Part shown: one piece after another, positions 6,590 to 42,636 of the stretch
Layout of the letters: each line of letters begins with the position of its first letter
Numbering within the stretch: the stretch's first letter is position 1
Assembly: GCF_013004105.1 (NCBI RefSeq)
Contig: NZ_CP053085.1
Coordinates: 2,418,001 to 2,482,000 of the forward strand
Direction of reading: 5' to 3'
Source: Gemmatimonas groenlandica
GTDB taxonomy: Bacteria > Gemmatimonadota > Gemmatimonadetes > Gemmatimonadales > Gemmatimonadaceae
Length of the DNA stretch: 64,000 bases
Notes under the pieces: generated by a model
The model's input: only the letters and a program-made list of their open reading frames with translations
What the model was told of the DNA's origin: nothing
Databases searched by the model: none
Position numbers and translations under genes: made by a program

Positions 6590-6675
6590 TGAACGGCGCT
6601 AAGAGTTACGGGCGCTAAGAGTGAACGGCGCTAAAGTAAACGGCGCGAAGAATAAGGGGCGTGAACGGCGTCGGA
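6590..6675 (+). repeat. Left array of AACGGCGCTAAGAGT-type repeats
   Basis: Just after the ggt stop there are five imperfect copies of a roughly 15-19 base unit close to AACGGCGCTAAGAGT (perfect copy 6592-6606; others follow with small changes). The same unit recurs in inverse orientation at 6743-6810, on the other side of the hairpin at 6683-6713. The arrays could pair into one very long stem. Confidence 0.75.
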
Positions 6676-6682
6676 AGAAAGC

Positions 6683-6713
6683 AGAGCCCCGTGACCAATG
6701 GTCACGGGGCTCT
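6683..6713. terminator. Perfect 14-bp hairpin, bidirectional terminator between ggt and the lipoprotein gene
   Basis: Arms 6683-6696 and 6700-6713 pair perfectly (AGAGCCCCGTGACC and its complement) around the 3-base loop AAT. CTTTCC follows on the + strand and TTTCTTCC on the minus strand. It sits between convergent genes, as expected for a shared intrinsic terminator. Confidence 0.85.
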
Positions 6714-6742
6714 CTTTCCGATGCGGTTGCGTTCGCACCGCA

Positions 6743-6810
6743 GTTTACTCTTAGCGCTTCTTACCTTAGCGCCGTTTACTCTTAGCGCCGTTTATTCTCA
6801 GCGCCGTTCG
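6743..6810 (-). repeat. Right array, inverse copies of the same repeat
   Basis: Four imperfect copies of ACTCTTAGCGCCGTTT, the complement of the unit seen at 6590-6675, lie here (clearest 6777-6793). The array ends just before the stop codon of the minus-strand lipoprotein gene. The two arrays enclose the terminator symmetrically. Confidence 0.75.
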
Positions 6811-35948: not shown

Positions 35949-36383
35949 CTATTTCGGCGCGGCACTCGATTGAGGCGCCGCGCCGATTTGCTTGAGCTGC
36001 GCATCCAACAACCGCTTGGCCAGATTCGCCACCGGCGCGTTGGGATGGCGCGAGAAGTAGCCGAGCCACTCTCGCGTGTCCTCGCTTTCGTAGCGCGATC
36101 CCAACTCGAGCGCGCAAGTGACTTCGGCCTGCGTCGTCGCCTGATCGGCGGTTTCCTGATACACGATCAGACCGAAGGTGTACGCTGTGCCGCTCGCCAG
36201 TGAATCGACCGCCGGCGGCAATGGGATCGACAGTGCCCGCTCTCCCTCGCCGCGCATGAACGCCGGATTGCGAACGGCGAGGCATCCTTGCATCGCGTTC
36301 GCCACGCGCGTTCGCACACTCGGACCGCAGCCGGTGCTCAGCGCGACTGCGCTGAGCACCGTGATGATGACGCGAGTCTTCAT
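35949..36383 (-). CDS. Small lipoprotein coupled to the Asp-box protein
   Basis: 144 residues. Lipoprotein signal with lipobox LSTGC (Cys about 18) after VIITVLSAVA. The mature part has helices (ALELGSRYESEDTREWLGYF, NLAKRLLDAQLKQIGAA) similar to a TPR- or Sel1-like helical protein, not clearly assignable. The ATG 36383 overlaps the stop of the large Asp-box gene by 4 nt (ATGA), which decides the start; the longer frame from 36485 is not supported. Possibly a partner in the envelope of that exported protein. Confidence 0.8.
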   Translation of the reverse strand: MKTRVIITVLSAVALSTGCGPSVRTRVANAMQGCLAVRNPAFMRGEGERALSIPLPPAVDSLASGTAYTFGLIVYQETADQATTQAEVTCALELGSRYESEDTREWLGYFSRHPNAPVANLAKRLLDAQLKQIGAAPQSSAAPK

Positions 36384-39300
36384 GGCGTGGCAGTGCATCC
36401 CGCCACGACCGTGCACTTGGGATCGAGCAACGGCAGGTTGAGCCGCTTCAACTCCGCGTTCACCGCGGACAGATCGACCTTCCACACGGTCTCGAGTTTC
36501 GTGGTATAGCCGCCGAGTTCCTTCGTGAGGATGCTGAGGATCTCCGGCATGTACGTGCCCGGGGGACCGTCACCACGCTCCGACATCGAGAGCAGATTCG
36601 CGAGTCGGTTGTTCACGCGGATGGGGAAGTTGAGCGGGTCCTGTCCGCTCTGGTTCTTCACCTGATACACCTGCTCTTCCACCGCCGACGCGTTGGTCTT
36701 GAGCGTACCGCCCTTCGCCGCGAGCGCGGCATCCTGACTGCGCTTGAGGCGGTCGTCCAACTGCTCCTTCACGCGACGAATCTCGATCACGGCCTTCTGC
36801 GCTTCGTTCGTCTTGTCGCGCACCTGCTTGCCGAACGCGTACTGCGCGCGCAGATCGGCGTTCGTGACTTCCGGCAGCAGCGGGCTGCGCTGAATGGTCA
36901 TCGGCGCCGTCAGCGTCTTGCCGTCGGCGGTGAGGCGCACGGTGTAACGACCCGGCGGCAGCGCCGGCCCAGCCGTACCAGCGCCCCACAGAATCATGCC
37001 CGGGAAGCTTTCGATTCCCGTGGCGCGCATGTCGTAGGTGAAGCGCGACAGACCGGCGGTGAGCGGGAACGACGACGACGTACCGCGCCGGCGACCCGCG
37101 CCGGCACCAGCCGCCGATGTCGCGGTGTCACCCGTGAGCTCGCGCAGCACGGCACCGGCCGAATCGAGGATCGACAGCGTCGCACGCTTCGGCGCCGACT
37201 TGAACACCCAGCTCATCGGCACACCAGCGCTGGAGCGGATGCCGACCGGCGGCGCGAATAGATGGGCGTCGGCCGCGAGCACGGCCGGTGTCGCCTGACG
37301 AAGCGGCGCCACATTGTCGAGCACCCAGAAACCACGGCCGTGCGTAGCGATCACGAGATCGTTCGCTTCCACCACGAGATCGGCGATCGGCGTGTCGGGC
37401 ATATTGAGCTTGAGGCTCTGCCAGTTCGCGCCGTCATCGTACGAGATGTAGACGCCGTGCTGCGTGGCGGCATACAGCAATCCCTTGCGGGCCGGATCTT
37501 CGCGCACCGCATGCACATAGTCCTCGGCGCCGAGTCCGTTCACGATCTTCGTCCACGTCTTGCCGAAGTCGGTCGTGCGGAAGATGTACGGCGCGCGATC
37601 GTTCAGCAGCGGACGACGCACCGACATGTACATCGTGCCGGCATCGAACGCCGACGCATCGATCTGTGAGACGCGGCCGAAGTCCGGCATGTCCTTCGGC
37701 GTCACGTTGGTCCACGTGAGACCGCCATTCCGCGTTACGTGCACGAGACCGTCGTCGGAACCGGTCCAGATCACGTTCACATCCTTCTTGCTCGGCCCCA
37801 CGGAGAAGATCACGCCGTACACTTCGGGGCCGTTCATGTCACCCGTGATCGGGCCACCCGACTTCTCCTGCGTTTCCGGCGCGTGACGCGTAAGGTCACC
37901 GCTCAGCACCTTCCACGTGCGTCCACCATCGAGCGTGCGCCACAGACGCTGCGACGACACGAACAGCATCTTCGGATTCAGCGGCGAGTACAGGATGGGG
38001 AACGTCCACTGCCACCGCTCCTTGATGTCTTTCGACGGCTCACCCGAATAGAACCAGGGGTACGGATTCACTTCACGTGACAGCCCGGTCTTCTTGTTGA
38101 ACTTGTCGACGTAGCCGCCGTTGTTCGTACCGGCGTAGAAGATGTCGGGATCGAGCGGATCGGTCGCGATGTAGCCGGGCTCACCGCCGCCAACCTGATA
38201 CGACACCGCCATGCCGCCCGCCGCCTGCTGCGCGCCGTTCGGCCGTCCGAAGTTCCACTGCGACGGCGTGCACAGGGTGCTGTTGTCCTGCTGCGACCCG
38301 CAGATGTGATACGGAATGTGCTTCGTCGTGATCGCGTGATACCATTGCGCGGTCGGGAAGTCCTGCTCGGTCCACTTACCGCCGGTGTTCGTCGTCACCG
38401 CGCCGCCGCCGTCGTTGGCGCCAACCAGGTGCGTCGGATCAGCCGGATCGATCCACAGGTCATGGTGATCGCCGTGCGTCCCGTTGCCGATGCTCGTGAG
38501 CGTCTTGCCCGCGTCGGCCGAACGGAACAGCGACGTGTTCTGCGCGTACACGACATCGGCGTTCTTGTGGTCGGCGAACAGGTGCGTGTAATAGAACGCG
38601 CGCTGCCGGATGTTGCGGTCGCTGTTCACGAGCGTCCACGTGGCGCCGGCATCATCGCTCTTGAAGAGGCCACCGTTGTCGTTCTCGATCAGCGCGTACA
38701 CGCGGTTCGAGTTCGCGGCCGTGAGTGCGACGCCGATTCGACCTACCAGGCCGGCCGGCAGTCCCTTGTTGCGCGTGATCTCGGTCCACGTCTCGCCACC
38801 GTCGGTGCTCTTGAACAGTCCGGAACCCGGACCACCCGACGACATCTGAAATTCCTTGCGGTACGCTTCCCACATGGCCGCGTACATCACACTCGGGTTG
38901 TTGCGGTCGAGGGCGATATCGATCGCGCCCGACTTGTCATCGCGAAACAGCACCTTGCGCCACGACTTGCCGCCGTCGGTGCTCTTGAACACCCCGCGCT
39001 CGGCACTCGGCACGCTATACTTGCCGAAAACGGCCGCATACACGATGTCGGGGTTGGTCGGGTGGATGCGGATCTTCGAGATGGCATCGACGGTCTTGAA
39101 GCCGATGTGCGCCCACGTCTTGCCGGCATCGGTGCTCTTGTAGATGCCGTCGCCGGGCATGATGTTGCCGCGAATCGCCGACTCACCCATGCCGATGTAC
39201 ACGATATCGGGATTACTCTCGCTCACGGCCACCGCGCCCACCGAGGCGCTGGTGATCTGGCCGTCGGTCACCGGCGCCCAATTCTCGCCGCCATCGGTCG

Positions 39301-39559
39301 TCTTCCAGAGCCCGCCACCGGTCGCGCCGAAATACGCCTCGTTCTTACGCCCCACCACGCCGCTGGCGGCAATCGACCGGCCGCCGCGGTCGGGACCGAT
39401 GTTGCGCCACCGGAACGACTTGAGCAGCGTCGAATCCAGCGTAACCGGCGCCAATGGCGCGACGCGGGAGGTCGCCGTCGCCGGTTTGGCCGGCGGTTGC
39501 ACCAGCGCCGCCGGAACGGACAGCGCCGTGAGAAACAGGAAAGGTCGAAGTGGCAGCAT
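36380..39559 (-). CDS. Very large sortilin-like Asp-box (BNR/VPS10) propeller protein
   Basis: 1059 residues. Signal peptide (FLFLTALSVPAALVQ) at the N-terminus. Then at least ten Asp-box motifs: KTTDGGENW, KSTDAGKTW, KSTDGGKSW, KSTDGGETW, KSDDAGATW, RSADAGKTL, RTLDGGRTW, RTTDFGKTW, ISYDDGANW and a variant RNGGLTW. They form two seven-bladed propellers as in VPS10/sortilin and GH74-like enzymes. Sequences HDLWIDPADPTHLVGANDGG and VRPPLLNDRAPYIF-like pieces match proteins often annotated as glycosyl hydrolases, but catalytic acids of GH74 cannot be confirmed here. The C-terminal 250 residues are beta-sandwich and helical. Secreted; binding or hydrolytic role unknown. ATG 39559. Confidence 0.9.
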   Translation of the reverse strand: MLPLRPFLFLTALSVPAALVQPPAKPATATSRVAPLAPVTLDSTLLKSFRWRNIGPDRGGRSIAASGVVGRKNEAYFGATGGGLWKTTDGGENWAPVTDGQITSASVGAVAVSESNPDIVYIGMGESAIRGNIMPGDGIYKSTDAGKTWAHIGFKTVDAISKIRIHPTNPDIVYAAVFGKYSVPSAERGVFKSTDGGKSWRKVLFRDDKSGAIDIALDRNNPSVMYAAMWEAYRKEFQMSSGGPGSGLFKSTDGGETWTEITRNKGLPAGLVGRIGVALTAANSNRVYALIENDNGGLFKSDDAGATWTLVNSDRNIRQRAFYYTHLFADHKNADVVYAQNTSLFRSADAGKTLTSIGNGTHGDHHDLWIDPADPTHLVGANDGGGAVTTNTGGKWTEQDFPTAQWYHAITTKHIPYHICGSQQDNSTLCTPSQWNFGRPNGAQQAAGGMAVSYQVGGGEPGYIATDPLDPDIFYAGTNNGGYVDKFNKKTGLSREVNPYPWFYSGEPSKDIKERWQWTFPILYSPLNPKMLFVSSQRLWRTLDGGRTWKVLSGDLTRHAPETQEKSGGPITGDMNGPEVYGVIFSVGPSKKDVNVIWTGSDDGLVHVTRNGGLTWTNVTPKDMPDFGRVSQIDASAFDAGTMYMSVRRPLLNDRAPYIFRTTDFGKTWTKIVNGLGAEDYVHAVREDPARKGLLYAATQHGVYISYDDGANWQSLKLNMPDTPIADLVVEANDLVIATHGRGFWVLDNVAPLRQATPAVLAADAHLFAPPVGIRSSAGVPMSWVFKSAPKRATLSILDSAGAVLRELTGDTATSAAGAGAGRRRGTSSSFPLTAGLSRFTYDMRATGIESFPGMILWGAGTAGPALPPGRYTVRLTADGKTLTAPMTIQRSPLLPEVTNADLRAQYAFGKQVRDKTNEAQKAVIEIRRVKEQLDDRLKRSQDAALAAKGGTLKTNASAVEEQVYQVKNQSGQDPLNFPIRVNNRLANLLSMSERGDGPPGTYMPEILSILTKELGGYTTKLETVWKVDLSAVNAELKRLNLPLLDPKCTVVAGCTATP

Positions 39560-39686
39560 GGTCGGGAATGAGGAGGCGGAGCACTGCAGGGCCGCCCGCG
39601 TACGAACGGCACCCTTACGTTGCAGGCTACGTCCGGGGATGGCAACTCGCTGACACGACGATGACGGCCTCGGCGCATGATCCGGC

Positions 39687-40076
39687 ATGCCCCCGATCAA
39701 TCAGATCACCGCCGACATCATCGACGCGTCGATCCACATCCATGCCGACCTCGGCCCCGGCCTCTTCGAATCGGCGTATGAGGAACTGCTCGCCGCCGAG
39801 CTAACGCGCCGCGGTCTCCGCGTCCAACGGCAGCTCGTCGTGCCTTTCGAGTACAGAGGGACGAAGATTGAATTCGGGTTCCGGCTCGACCTGATGATCG
39901 AGGGGCGCATTCCGGTGGAGCTCAAATGCACCGAACGCCCGGCGCCCATTCACCAACGACAATTGCTGACCTATCTGCGGATCATGAAGCTGCCAGTCGG
40001 CCTGCTCATCAATTTTGGTGGCGACCGCCTGATCGACGGCGTTCAGCGGATCGTCAATGGCTACACCGGCGAATGA
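39687..40076 (+). CDS. GxxExxY family protein, PD-(D/E)XK nuclease-like
   Basis: 129 residues. The family motif is GLFESAYEE (G-x-x-E-x-x-Y, residues 25-31). The PD-(D/E)XK core shows as FRLDLMIEGRIPVELKCTE, with Asp then Glu-Leu-Lys (E-x-K). Further conserved strands are LPVGLLINFGG and DGVQRIVN. Known members are small single-domain nuclease-fold proteins without a proven role. ATG 39687; no ribosome site is visible and no promoter stands out in the 127 bases upstream. A 43-bp-armed palindrome starts 20 bases after its stop. The pair may be a mobile or selfish unit; that part is inference. Confidence 0.9.
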   Translation: MPPINQITADIIDASIHIHADLGPGLFESAYEELLAAELTRRGLRVQRQLVVPFEYRGTKIEFGFRLDLMIEGRIPVELKCTERPAPIHQRQLLTYLRIMKLPVGLLINFGGDRLIDGVQRIVNGYTGE

Positions 40077-40095
40077 TCAAACCAAAAGCCTTTTG

Positions 40096-40195
40096 AAAAG
40101 ATCACGCAAAGAAAAAGAGGGCGCAGAGAACGCAGAGACCAAAATCACATGTTCTCTGCGTTCTCTGCGCACTCTGCATCTCTGCGTGATCTTTT
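40096..40195. repeat. 100-bp imperfect palindrome of CTCTGCG units next to the GxxExxY gene
   Basis: Arms 40096-40138 and 40153-40195 (43 bases each) are inverse copies with 38 of 43 positions pairing, around a 14-base A/C-rich loop. The right arm contains four spaced copies of CTCTGCG or CTCTGCA; the left arm has the complementary CGCAGAG units. Ends are GATCACGC/GCGTGATC. The base composition is lower in GC than the surrounding sequence. It lies between convergent genes, so it may also act as a terminator for glyS, but its length and internal repeats are unusual for that. Confidence 0.9.
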
Positions 40196-40244
40196 CCTGC
40201 AACCTGTGTGATCAGTTCCTACGATTCCGCCGCAAGCACACCAA

Positions 40245-41591
40245 CTACCCCACCAGCTTCGCCGCCAGGTAGCCCTTGAGCTGACTCACGTCGACCCGGT
40301 CCTGCGCCAGGGTGTCGCGGTCGCGCACGGTGACCGTCTGATCGGTCGTGCTCTGGCCGTCGACCGTGATGCAGAACGGCGTGCCGACTTCGTCCTGACG
40401 GCGGTAGCGCTTGCCGATCGAGCCCGATTCGTCGTAGTCCATCGGAAACGCCATGCGAAGGTCGTTCATGATGTTCTTCGCCATTTCCGGCTGACCGTCC
40501 TTCTTCGTGAGCGGGAAGATCGCGGCCTTGATCGGGGCGATCGACCGATGCAGGCCCAGCACCACGCGGCCTTCATCTTCGCCCTCCACCGACTCTTCGC
40601 GGTACGCGTTCACCAGCGCGGCCAGAGTGACACGATCGGCGCCGACCGACGTTTCGATCACGTACGGCACATAGCGCTTGTTGTTCAGCTGGTCGTAGTA
40701 CTCGAGCTTCTTGCTCGAGTACTGCTGATGCTGCGTGAGATCGAAATCGCCGCGATTGTGCACACCTTCGATTTCCTGGAAGCCGAGGGTGCCGCCGAAG
40801 TCGAACGTCACGTCGAATGCCGCGCGCGCGTAGTGCGCGAGCTCACCGGCGCCGTGCTGATGGAACTTGAGACGCTCCGGCGAGAGACCGAGCGCCAGAT
40901 GCCACTCCATGCGCAGCTGCTTCCACTGCTCGAACCACTCCATGTCCGTGCCCGGCTCGACGAAGAACTGCATCTCCATCTGCTCGAACTCGCGCGTGCG
41001 GAAAATGAAGTTGCCCGGCGTGATCTCGTTGCGGAACGCCTTGCCGATCTGCGCGATGCCGAATGGCACCTTCTGACGCATGCTCTGCTGCACGTTCAGA
41101 AAATTCACGAAGATGCCCTGCGCCGTTTCCGGACGCAGGTAGACGATGCTCGCGCTCTCCTCGAGCGCGCCCATGTACGTCTTGAACATCAGGTTGAAAT
41201 TGCGCGCTTCCGTGAGCTGACAGGCATCGTGCTGCCCCGGCTGCTTGCTCGGCTTCTGCGGGCAACGCGCGTCTTCGAGCTTGTCGGCGCGGAAACGGCC
41301 CTTGCACGTCTTACAGTCCACCAGGGGGTCGACGAAACCGGCCACGTGTCCGCTCGCTTCCCACGTGCGCGGGTGCATCAGGATCGCCGCATCGAGCCCT
41401 TCGATGTCGTCGCGCGAACGCACCATCGCGTTCCACCAGCGATCCTTGATGTTCTTCTTGAGCTCCACACCAAGCGGACCGTAGTCCCACACCGAGCCCG
41501 TGCCGCCGTAGATCTCGGAGGACTGGAAGATGAAGCCGCGGCGCTTGCACAGCGACACCAGCTTGTCCATCACGTCGGGTTGGGAAGCCAT
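40245..41591 (-). CDS. glyS: Glycyl-tRNA synthetase, dimeric alpha2 type
   Basis: About 448 residues. It charges tRNA-Gly with glycine. Class II motifs: [15 protein letters not shown] near the N-terminus, motif 2 region [26 protein letters not shown], and [13 protein letters not shown] for motif 3-like contacts, then the anticodon domain ending in [14 protein letters not shown]. The Cys set CKTCKGRF and [15 protein letters not shown] marks the family zinc-like insertion. Most bacteria have a tetrameric enzyme; this single-chain form occurs in Actinobacteria, Deinococcus and archaea-like types. ATG 41591 is preferred over the frame extended to 41642. No ribosome site is obvious. Confidence 0.95.
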
Positions 41592-41610
41592 CGGAACCGA
41601 AGAGTTGAAG

Positions 41611-42636
41611 TCAGGAAAGGATATGCCGCACGATCGTGTCACCGTGATCGCGGCCGTTCTCGATGAAGATACGATTCGCCGAAAGCCCGGAGGCGATCAC
41701 TCCCGCAAGGTAGACACCGGTGACCGGCGTGGCCATCGTGAGCGGGTTGTGCTGCGGAATGCCGCTGTCGGGCTCGATGGGCACGCCCACCGCCTCGAGC
41801 AATCCCGTTTCCGGCAGATACCCCGTCATCGTGTACACCTGCGTCGCCGGCACGCGCACCTCGCCCTCAGGCCCCGCGATCACGACCACGTCGGGCTCGA
41901 TCGCCAACACCCGGCTCTCATAGTGCGCCTGGATGCTGCCCTCGTGAATGCGCGCCTCGATTTCCGGACGTACCCACGGCTTTACCCCGTTGTCCAGCGT
42001 GGCACCCACGTGCACCATCGTGACGTGGGCGCCGGCGCGGTACATGTCGAGCGCGGCGTCCACGGCTGAATTGCCGCCGCCCACGATCACCACCGGTTCG
42101 CGCCACGCCGAGTGGCCTTCCACGTAGCCGTGACGCACATGCGGCAACGATTCGCCTGGCACCTGCAGCAGATTCGGACGACCGAAATAGCCCGTCGCGA
42201 TGATCACCGCATGCGCCGCCGTTTCCATCACCTCGCCACTGCGCTTCACGCTGCGCAGCAGCCACTGCGCCCCGCGCGCGGGCGCCAGCTCGCCGGCCGG
42301 CGGATCGAAGCGCACCGGGCGCATCGATTCCACCGTTTCGTACTGCCGCACCGGCACGTCGTACATCGATGCCACACCGCGATAGTAGGCGAGCGCATCA
42401 CGACGCGTCGGCTTGTCGGTCGCCACCAGGAACGGCACGCCGCCGATCGCGATCCGTTCGGCCGTACTGAAAAACGTCATGTACGTCGGATAGCTCGCGA
42501 TGCCGTGCACGATGCACCCGCGGTCGAACACCGCGACCGACAATCCACCGCGAATCGCCGCAATCGCCGCGGCCAGACCGCACGGCCCGGCCCCCACGAT
42601 CGCCACGTCCACGAACGTCGTCACGGACGCGCTCAT
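41611..42636 (-). CDS. ypdA: YpdA family putative bacillithiol disulfide reductase
   Basis: 341 residues. FAD and NADPH Rossmann motifs: [17 protein letters not shown] near the N-terminus and [17 protein letters not shown] in the middle. The family features [20 protein letters not shown] and [20 protein letters not shown] match YpdA, which reduces bacillithiol disulfide rather than thioredoxin (no CxxC). This suggests the organism makes bacillithiol or a similar low-molecular thiol. ATG 42636 overlaps the purA stop by 4 nt (ATGA), and glyS begins 20 nt after its own stop, so glyS, ypdA and purA form one unit. Confidence 0.9.

Follow-up and report, generated by a model that had tools for sequence, protein, structure and literature searches.

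The window analysed here is a stretch of 64,000 nucleotides (64 kb) from the Gemmatimonas groenlandica genome. On its forward strand, at 39687..40076, lies a gene for a 129 aa protein that a sequence-only reading had taken for a GxxExxY nuclease of the PD-(D/E)XK type. This assignment was confirmed by matches to both PF13366 (PDDEXK_3, 118.6 bits at a cut-off of 22) and TIGR04256 (GxxExxY, 121.4 bits at a cut-off of 35). The product carries the full motif G25xxE28xxY31 together with the catalytic residues D68, E78-x-K80 and Q92, and G25, E28, Y31, D68, E78, K80 and Q92 are invariant across 15 diverse GxxExxY members. Judged by profile matches, residues and an AlphaFold model, 39687-40076 is an intact GxxExxY PD-(D/E)XK gene and a member of the family. 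Its convergent neighbour is the glyS reading frame (glycyl-tRNA synthetase, 40245..41642, reverse strand), which served as landmark for orthologous loci. On the other side lies a further landmark, a large conserved gene on the reverse strand (36380..39560, start approximate), whose name, BNR/sialidase-like-repeat gene, is inferred from the repeat pattern in its translation.

The AlphaFold model of the protein is compact and confident (pLDDT 90). Foldseek placed the Cas4-type SSO0001 first (4ic1, E 2.9e-4), and VIA-align gave Z 9.6 for this pair (rmsd 4.3 over 103 residues) and Z 7.0 for the archaeal Hjc resolvase (1gef, rmsd 3.2 over 87). Neither tool found a match that stood out from the general PD-(D/E)XK fold, Z values of 7-8 not being distinctive. 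Likeness to the Cas4, lambda-exonuclease and Holliday-junction-resolvase branches is confined to the minimal PD-(D/E)XK fold, whereas sequence-level membership was not found, and a common fold shows no function. The predicted fold would suit DNA substrates that are branched or contain ends, which proves nothing about what the protein does.

Eighteen bases past the stop codon of the nuclease gene, a long palindrome begins (40095-40196). It had been recognized in the sequence-only reading and proved somewhat bigger than claimed there, with 47-nt arms that are 87% complementary and an 8-nt loop. The left arm (40095..40141, forward strand) starts with the end box GAAAAGATCACGC and continues in CGCAGAG tandem units; the right arm (40150..40196, forward strand) consists of CTCTGCG units and closes with the end box GCGTGATCTTTTC. 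Both the tandem repeats and the GATCACGC ends agree with the first description. Just beyond the palindrome stands a solitary outer end box, TGATCAGTTC (40209..40218, forward strand), and in relatives such end boxes are tandemly repeated (for example L149 and L267). The fold energy was -46.1 kcal/mol compared to -16.3 +/- 3.0 kcal/mol in dinucleotide shuffles (z = -10.1, reached by 0 of 200 shuffles). Only one other comparable palindrome occurs in the window (6591..6809). It has arms of ~65 nt and a different, AACGGCGCTAAGAGT-type unit in the same architecture. Three block-shuffled 64-kb windows contained none. All orthologues of the GxxExxY gene at the glyS locus kept a palindrome, 0-40 bp 3' of the gene. 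Among these orthologues dN/dS was 0.09-0.19, which shows that the gene is maintained under purifying selection. Two orthologues carry an in-frame TAA (G069/L150, 540-815; G071/L189, 1492-1758) and recent gene loss therefore occurs. Palindromes are still abundant in both of these genomes.

When the palindrome was searched for in the organism's own genome, one contig of 5.18 Mb, ~20 distinct, dispersed places came to light, so that it is neither unique nor a private terminator of glyS. The members of this CTCTGCG family (family 1) have common end boxes, GAACTGATCACGC...GCGTGATCAGTTC, in addition to the CTCTGCG units. Some places hold the arms in reversed order or additional end boxes, and a single arm therefore acts as the monomer, much as it does in REP/REPIN arrays. 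CTTCGCG units make up a second family (family 2), which is unrelated in sequence to the first and occupies ~25 places or more among the part of the candidates that was scored. One of its copies precedes another GxxExxY gene (L033/L092) by 49-51 bp. Copies lie between a few and a few tens of bases past stop codons, and 13 of 26 copies from the two families were found between convergent genes. The genome encodes six GxxExxY genes, four of which border long palindromes, each differing in sequence. Such repeats beside other GxxExxY genes were found in relatives as well. The earlier suggestion that gene and palindrome travel as one unit was not supported: within the genus the palindromes are dispersed, but the gene keeps to a single locus 3' of glyS. 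A RAYT as hidden mobiliser was ruled out: a search of the genome for the Y1/RAYT transposase (PF01797, Y1_Tnp) gave no match, while control genomes including E. coli matched.

A near-perfect palindrome with 31-nt arms of ACTCAAAACTC units also lies just upstream of a four-helix-bundle gene (TIGR02436; L035 1366-1431, own genome 1976548-1979865). None of the other four of the five four-helix-bundle loci in this genome has a palindrome of that length. This may be a parallel association.

Beyond the window, GxxExxY relatives were gathered by single-protein search, the family being too divergent for alignment-based search. GxxExxY genes are SPECIFICALLY linked to long palindromes. Among loci of the Gemmatimonadaceae, 25 of 60 GxxExxY genes had a palindrome within 150 bp, compared to 29 of the 283 other genes in the same 12-kb stretches, which served as controls (Fisher p = 5e-8, with crude control gene calling and loci that are not fully independent). 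Far intergenic regions contained a palindrome in 11% of cases; since several of these 'far' palindromes themselves belong to the families in question, as additional copies, the control is conservative. Thirteen palindromes were located 5' and 16 were located 3' of the gene, and the side showed no relation to protein relatedness (Mantel p = 0.32). Outside the phylum, palindromes adjoin GxxExxY genes in a deltaproteobacterial MAG and an Acidobacteriaceae MAG. They also do so on contigs filed under Methanothrix and Paceibacterota, where MAG binning is doubtful. No palindrome directly adjoined the GxxExxY genes of five plasmids (Sphingomonas, Bacteroides, Bernardetia, Treponema and Prevotella), none was present at the loci L161 and L162, and none was detected at more than half of all GxxExxY loci. 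Given these palindrome-free loci and the plasmid examples, the association belongs to particular lineages and does not extend to GxxExxY genes in general. Two palindrome-free genes are tightly inserted among other genes, one between fabD and fabG in Sphingomonas (L311 2938-3366) and one after radA in Bacteroides (L312 2989-3363). Viral contigs contained no relative of the GxxExxY protein, and the six with an exact end box contained neither palindrome nor GxxExxY gene.

Across 36 non-redundant gene-palindrome pairs, protein identity predicted arm similarity (Mantel r = 0.38, p <= 0.0002, 0 of 5000 permutations). The correlation was present within the genus (r = 0.43, p = 0.0008) and outside it (r = 0.35, p = 0.0002), and it persisted under stratified permutation. 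Each GxxExxY lineage thus has its own palindrome sequence. A degenerate unit, CRCRRA[G/T], is nevertheless common to arms across lineages, with 56 occurrences in 1544 nt versus 3.1 in shuffles.

Gene lineages and palindrome families also co-occur (all p values are from raw genome counts, uncorrected for phylogeny). Family 1 palindromes were present in 12 of 30 genus genomes, 10 of which hold the cognate gene lineage, versus 0 of the 18 genomes without them (p = 2e-6). In the ten carriers the gene sits either at the glyS locus or next to the same palindrome. Its identity is 87-100% in seven of them and 55-58% in the other three; for these three, 'cognate' was assigned by locus and palindrome and is partly circular, the seven being the clean cases. 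The two palindrome-bearing genomes without the gene are incomplete MAGs (57% and 80%). Family 2 was found in 8 genomes, and the L033 orthologue (84-100% identity) in five of these versus 0 of 22 others (p = 4e-4); all five hold many CTTCGCG copies. Relatedness does not simply account for this co-occurrence, because the pattern is patchy with respect to glyS DNA identity: G063 (88.0%) lacks both gene and palindrome, while G059 (87.7%) and G062 (83.5%) have both.

At orthologous sites, palindromes are present in some genomes and absent in others, as at site 14 (G079/G080) and site 10 (G070). At site 10 in G084 (L294) the interior is lost, and fusion of the outer boxes has left GAACTGATCAGTTC. 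This sequence of the site without the element would fit either a duplication of TGATCA or a deletion through slippage; no duplication is seen at sites 9 and 14, where remnants with one end or one arm are found. Such clean loss would fit enzymatic excision and also replication slippage between TGATCA boxes. At site 2 of G079 and G082 (L296, L297), palindrome and flank are apparently multiplied in tandem to 3-4 copies. A different kind of change was found in G084, where at the glyS site and at site 2 a new interior (CACACAGAG...AAAGAGA...) stands in the place that CGCAGAG units occupy in sister genomes. Both arms are changed and remain complementary. Cut-and-copy repair or template switching may have produced this two-arm replacement. 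RNAalifold, applied to 14 copies, found double changes in 4 of 32 pairs (covariation term +0.59); conservation of the units left little covariation credit. A stronger sign comes from L153/L305, where both arms have been replaced. Genomes without the GxxExxY gene at glyS have a different palindrome there, with GGGAGGGGAACTAC units (L154, L156, L168). Palindromes thus seem to have a hot spot at the 3' end of glyS.

An ordinary bidirectional terminator serving the GxxExxY and glyS genes is highly improbable, even though a strong hairpin between convergent genes is what such a terminator would look like. Intrinsic terminators combine a short GC-rich stem with a T-run and are private to a gene end, whereas here the arms have 47 nt with internal tandem units, no T-run exceeds TTTT, the family is dispersed and multicopy, and palindromes are also found 5' of genes (L092). 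Dispersal and 5'-side palindromes rule termination out as the sole explanation; incidental terminator activity is possible. We give equally little credence to palindromes being MITE-like derivatives of a classical transposon, mobilised by an ordinary DDE transposase. This idea draws on G037, where a MITE of 330-370 bp in ~7 copies (L241-L247), with GTAGTGGGTCAGTTT as its 15-bp terminal inverted repeats and with duplications of apparently 8 bp, contains a GxxExxY gene fragment between two arms of a CACGGAG-type palindrome. However, its terminal inverted repeats are outside the palindrome and unrelated to it, and the dispersed CTCTGCG palindromes have neither such repeats nor visible duplications. 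A retron-like partnership, raised in the sequence-only reading, gained no support: nothing retron-like was seen, and no reverse transcriptase was noted among the open reading frames read around the gene.

In two further explanations the nuclease does not mobilise the palindromes. In the first, long palindromes might arise and spread through replication template switching or through another enzyme, with GxxExxY genes as small passengers that are tolerated in the same intergenic 3'-end sites. Quasi-palindrome correction yields matched arms. The preference for positions past stop codons (with 13 of 26 copies lying between convergent genes), the unrelated palindromes at the glyS 3' end of gene-free genomes and the one MITE that holds both arms and a gene fragment all agree with a shared niche. 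Nevertheless we think it unlikely: it does not predict the covariation of protein and palindrome, the linkage of one gene to one family or their co-occurrence, the enrichment holds against other intergenic regions, and the nuclease is under purifying selection. Slightly less likely still is a parasite resembling homing endonucleases, in which the GxxExxY gene invades beside pre-existing palindromes by cutting them, and would be adjacent and coevolving without mobilising them. Genes that adjoin a complete palindrome on its 5' or 3' side, interior replacement at fixed loci that fits cut-and-repair, and tight insertions into operons such as fabD/fabG of Sphingomonas would be expected of such a parasite. 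The gene, however, does not follow the palindromes (~20 palindromes, one gene), and palindrome families are missing where the gene lineage is missing. Homing endonuclease genes likewise lie beside a presumed recognition site, but here the site is multicopy and variable while the gene stays, and there is no intron or intein. In 23S rRNA intervening sequences a small ORF is associated with a long stem. The present system shares this combination with the intervening sequences that carry four-helix-bundle (S23) genes, but it lies outside rRNA and involves another protein.

The interpretation that we favour, with somewhat better than even confidence, is a two-part system that resembles REPIN/RAYT pairs, in which a non-homologous nuclease would act on its own palindromes. 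It is based on dispersal, family-specific linkage, co-occurrence, covariation, clean loss, both-arm replacement and selection. The REP/RAYT comparison made from sequence alone thus stands as the best reading of the locus, and it survived both of the refuting checks set for it there. As with REPINs, the palindromes are dispersed, intergenic, mostly post-stop and composed of two inverted monomers (PMC3116915, PMC3733652). Each repeat family has one single-copy gene of the endonuclease class, bordered by a family member, and several families, each with its own gene, coexist in a genome and leave clean excision traces. Similarly, each RAYT is distinctive and single copy, and REPIN excision has been detected in reads (PMC3116915). 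REPs lie downstream of genes, their monomers measure 20-40 bp with a GTAG or CGTC tag, and CGTC repeats have no known enzyme (PMC3733652). These published descriptions are closely paralleled here. In contrast, the enzyme here is PD-(D/E)XK, not HUH/Y1, and the palindromes measure ~85-200 bp, with arms of 40-60 nt and tandem 7-9-nt units. No GTAG/CGTC tag was found at the palindrome ends, where the end boxes are GAACTGATCA, and tens of copies were found per palindrome family. Since the Y1 transposase and REP-type length and tag are absent, we say that the system works like REPIN/RAYT, not that it is one.

The proposed REPIN/RAYT-like system couples a single-copy, vertically kept GxxExxY PD-(D/E)XK gene, with one 'reference' palindrome at its border, to dozens of palindromes of the same family that are scattered through intergenic DNA, for the most part shortly past stop codons. 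In each palindrome, conserved end boxes (GAACTGATCA...TGATCAGTTC in the CTCTGCG family) enclose a pair of inverted arms, which are built from degenerate 7-9-nt units with the consensus CRCRRA[G/T]. The arms may extrude as a hairpin or cruciform. Cuts by the cognate nuclease would fall at the base of this structure or in its loop, and as the cut DNA is repaired or copied, palindromes could be spread, removed and homogenised in trans. The GxxExxY protein would thus be expected to bind, cleave and mobilise the palindromes.

In the literature searched, which included few subscription papers, no described function was found for the widespread PD-(D/E)XK family GxxExxY, nor were the typical repeat strings found; an earlier description is possible. 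GxxExxY is mentioned only in passing in PMC8934634. More tentatively, and with slightly less than even confidence, we propose that GxxExxY proteins may be dedicated, sequence-specific mobilisers or rewriters of long palindromes with tandem units. They would represent a second, independent origin of a REPIN/RAYT-like system, with a restriction-type fold working on extruded hairpins, and might be the source of many anonymous CRCRRAG-type repeats in Gemmatimonadota, Acidobacteriota and other phyla. If true, this would provide a function for a large uncharacterised nuclease family and account for those long palindromes, dispersed in bacterial genomes, that have no known enzyme. The joint persistence of repeat populations and a single-copy nuclease has so far been studied with RAYTs; because the enzyme here is unrelated to them, these palindromes would allow the question to be tested independently a second time.
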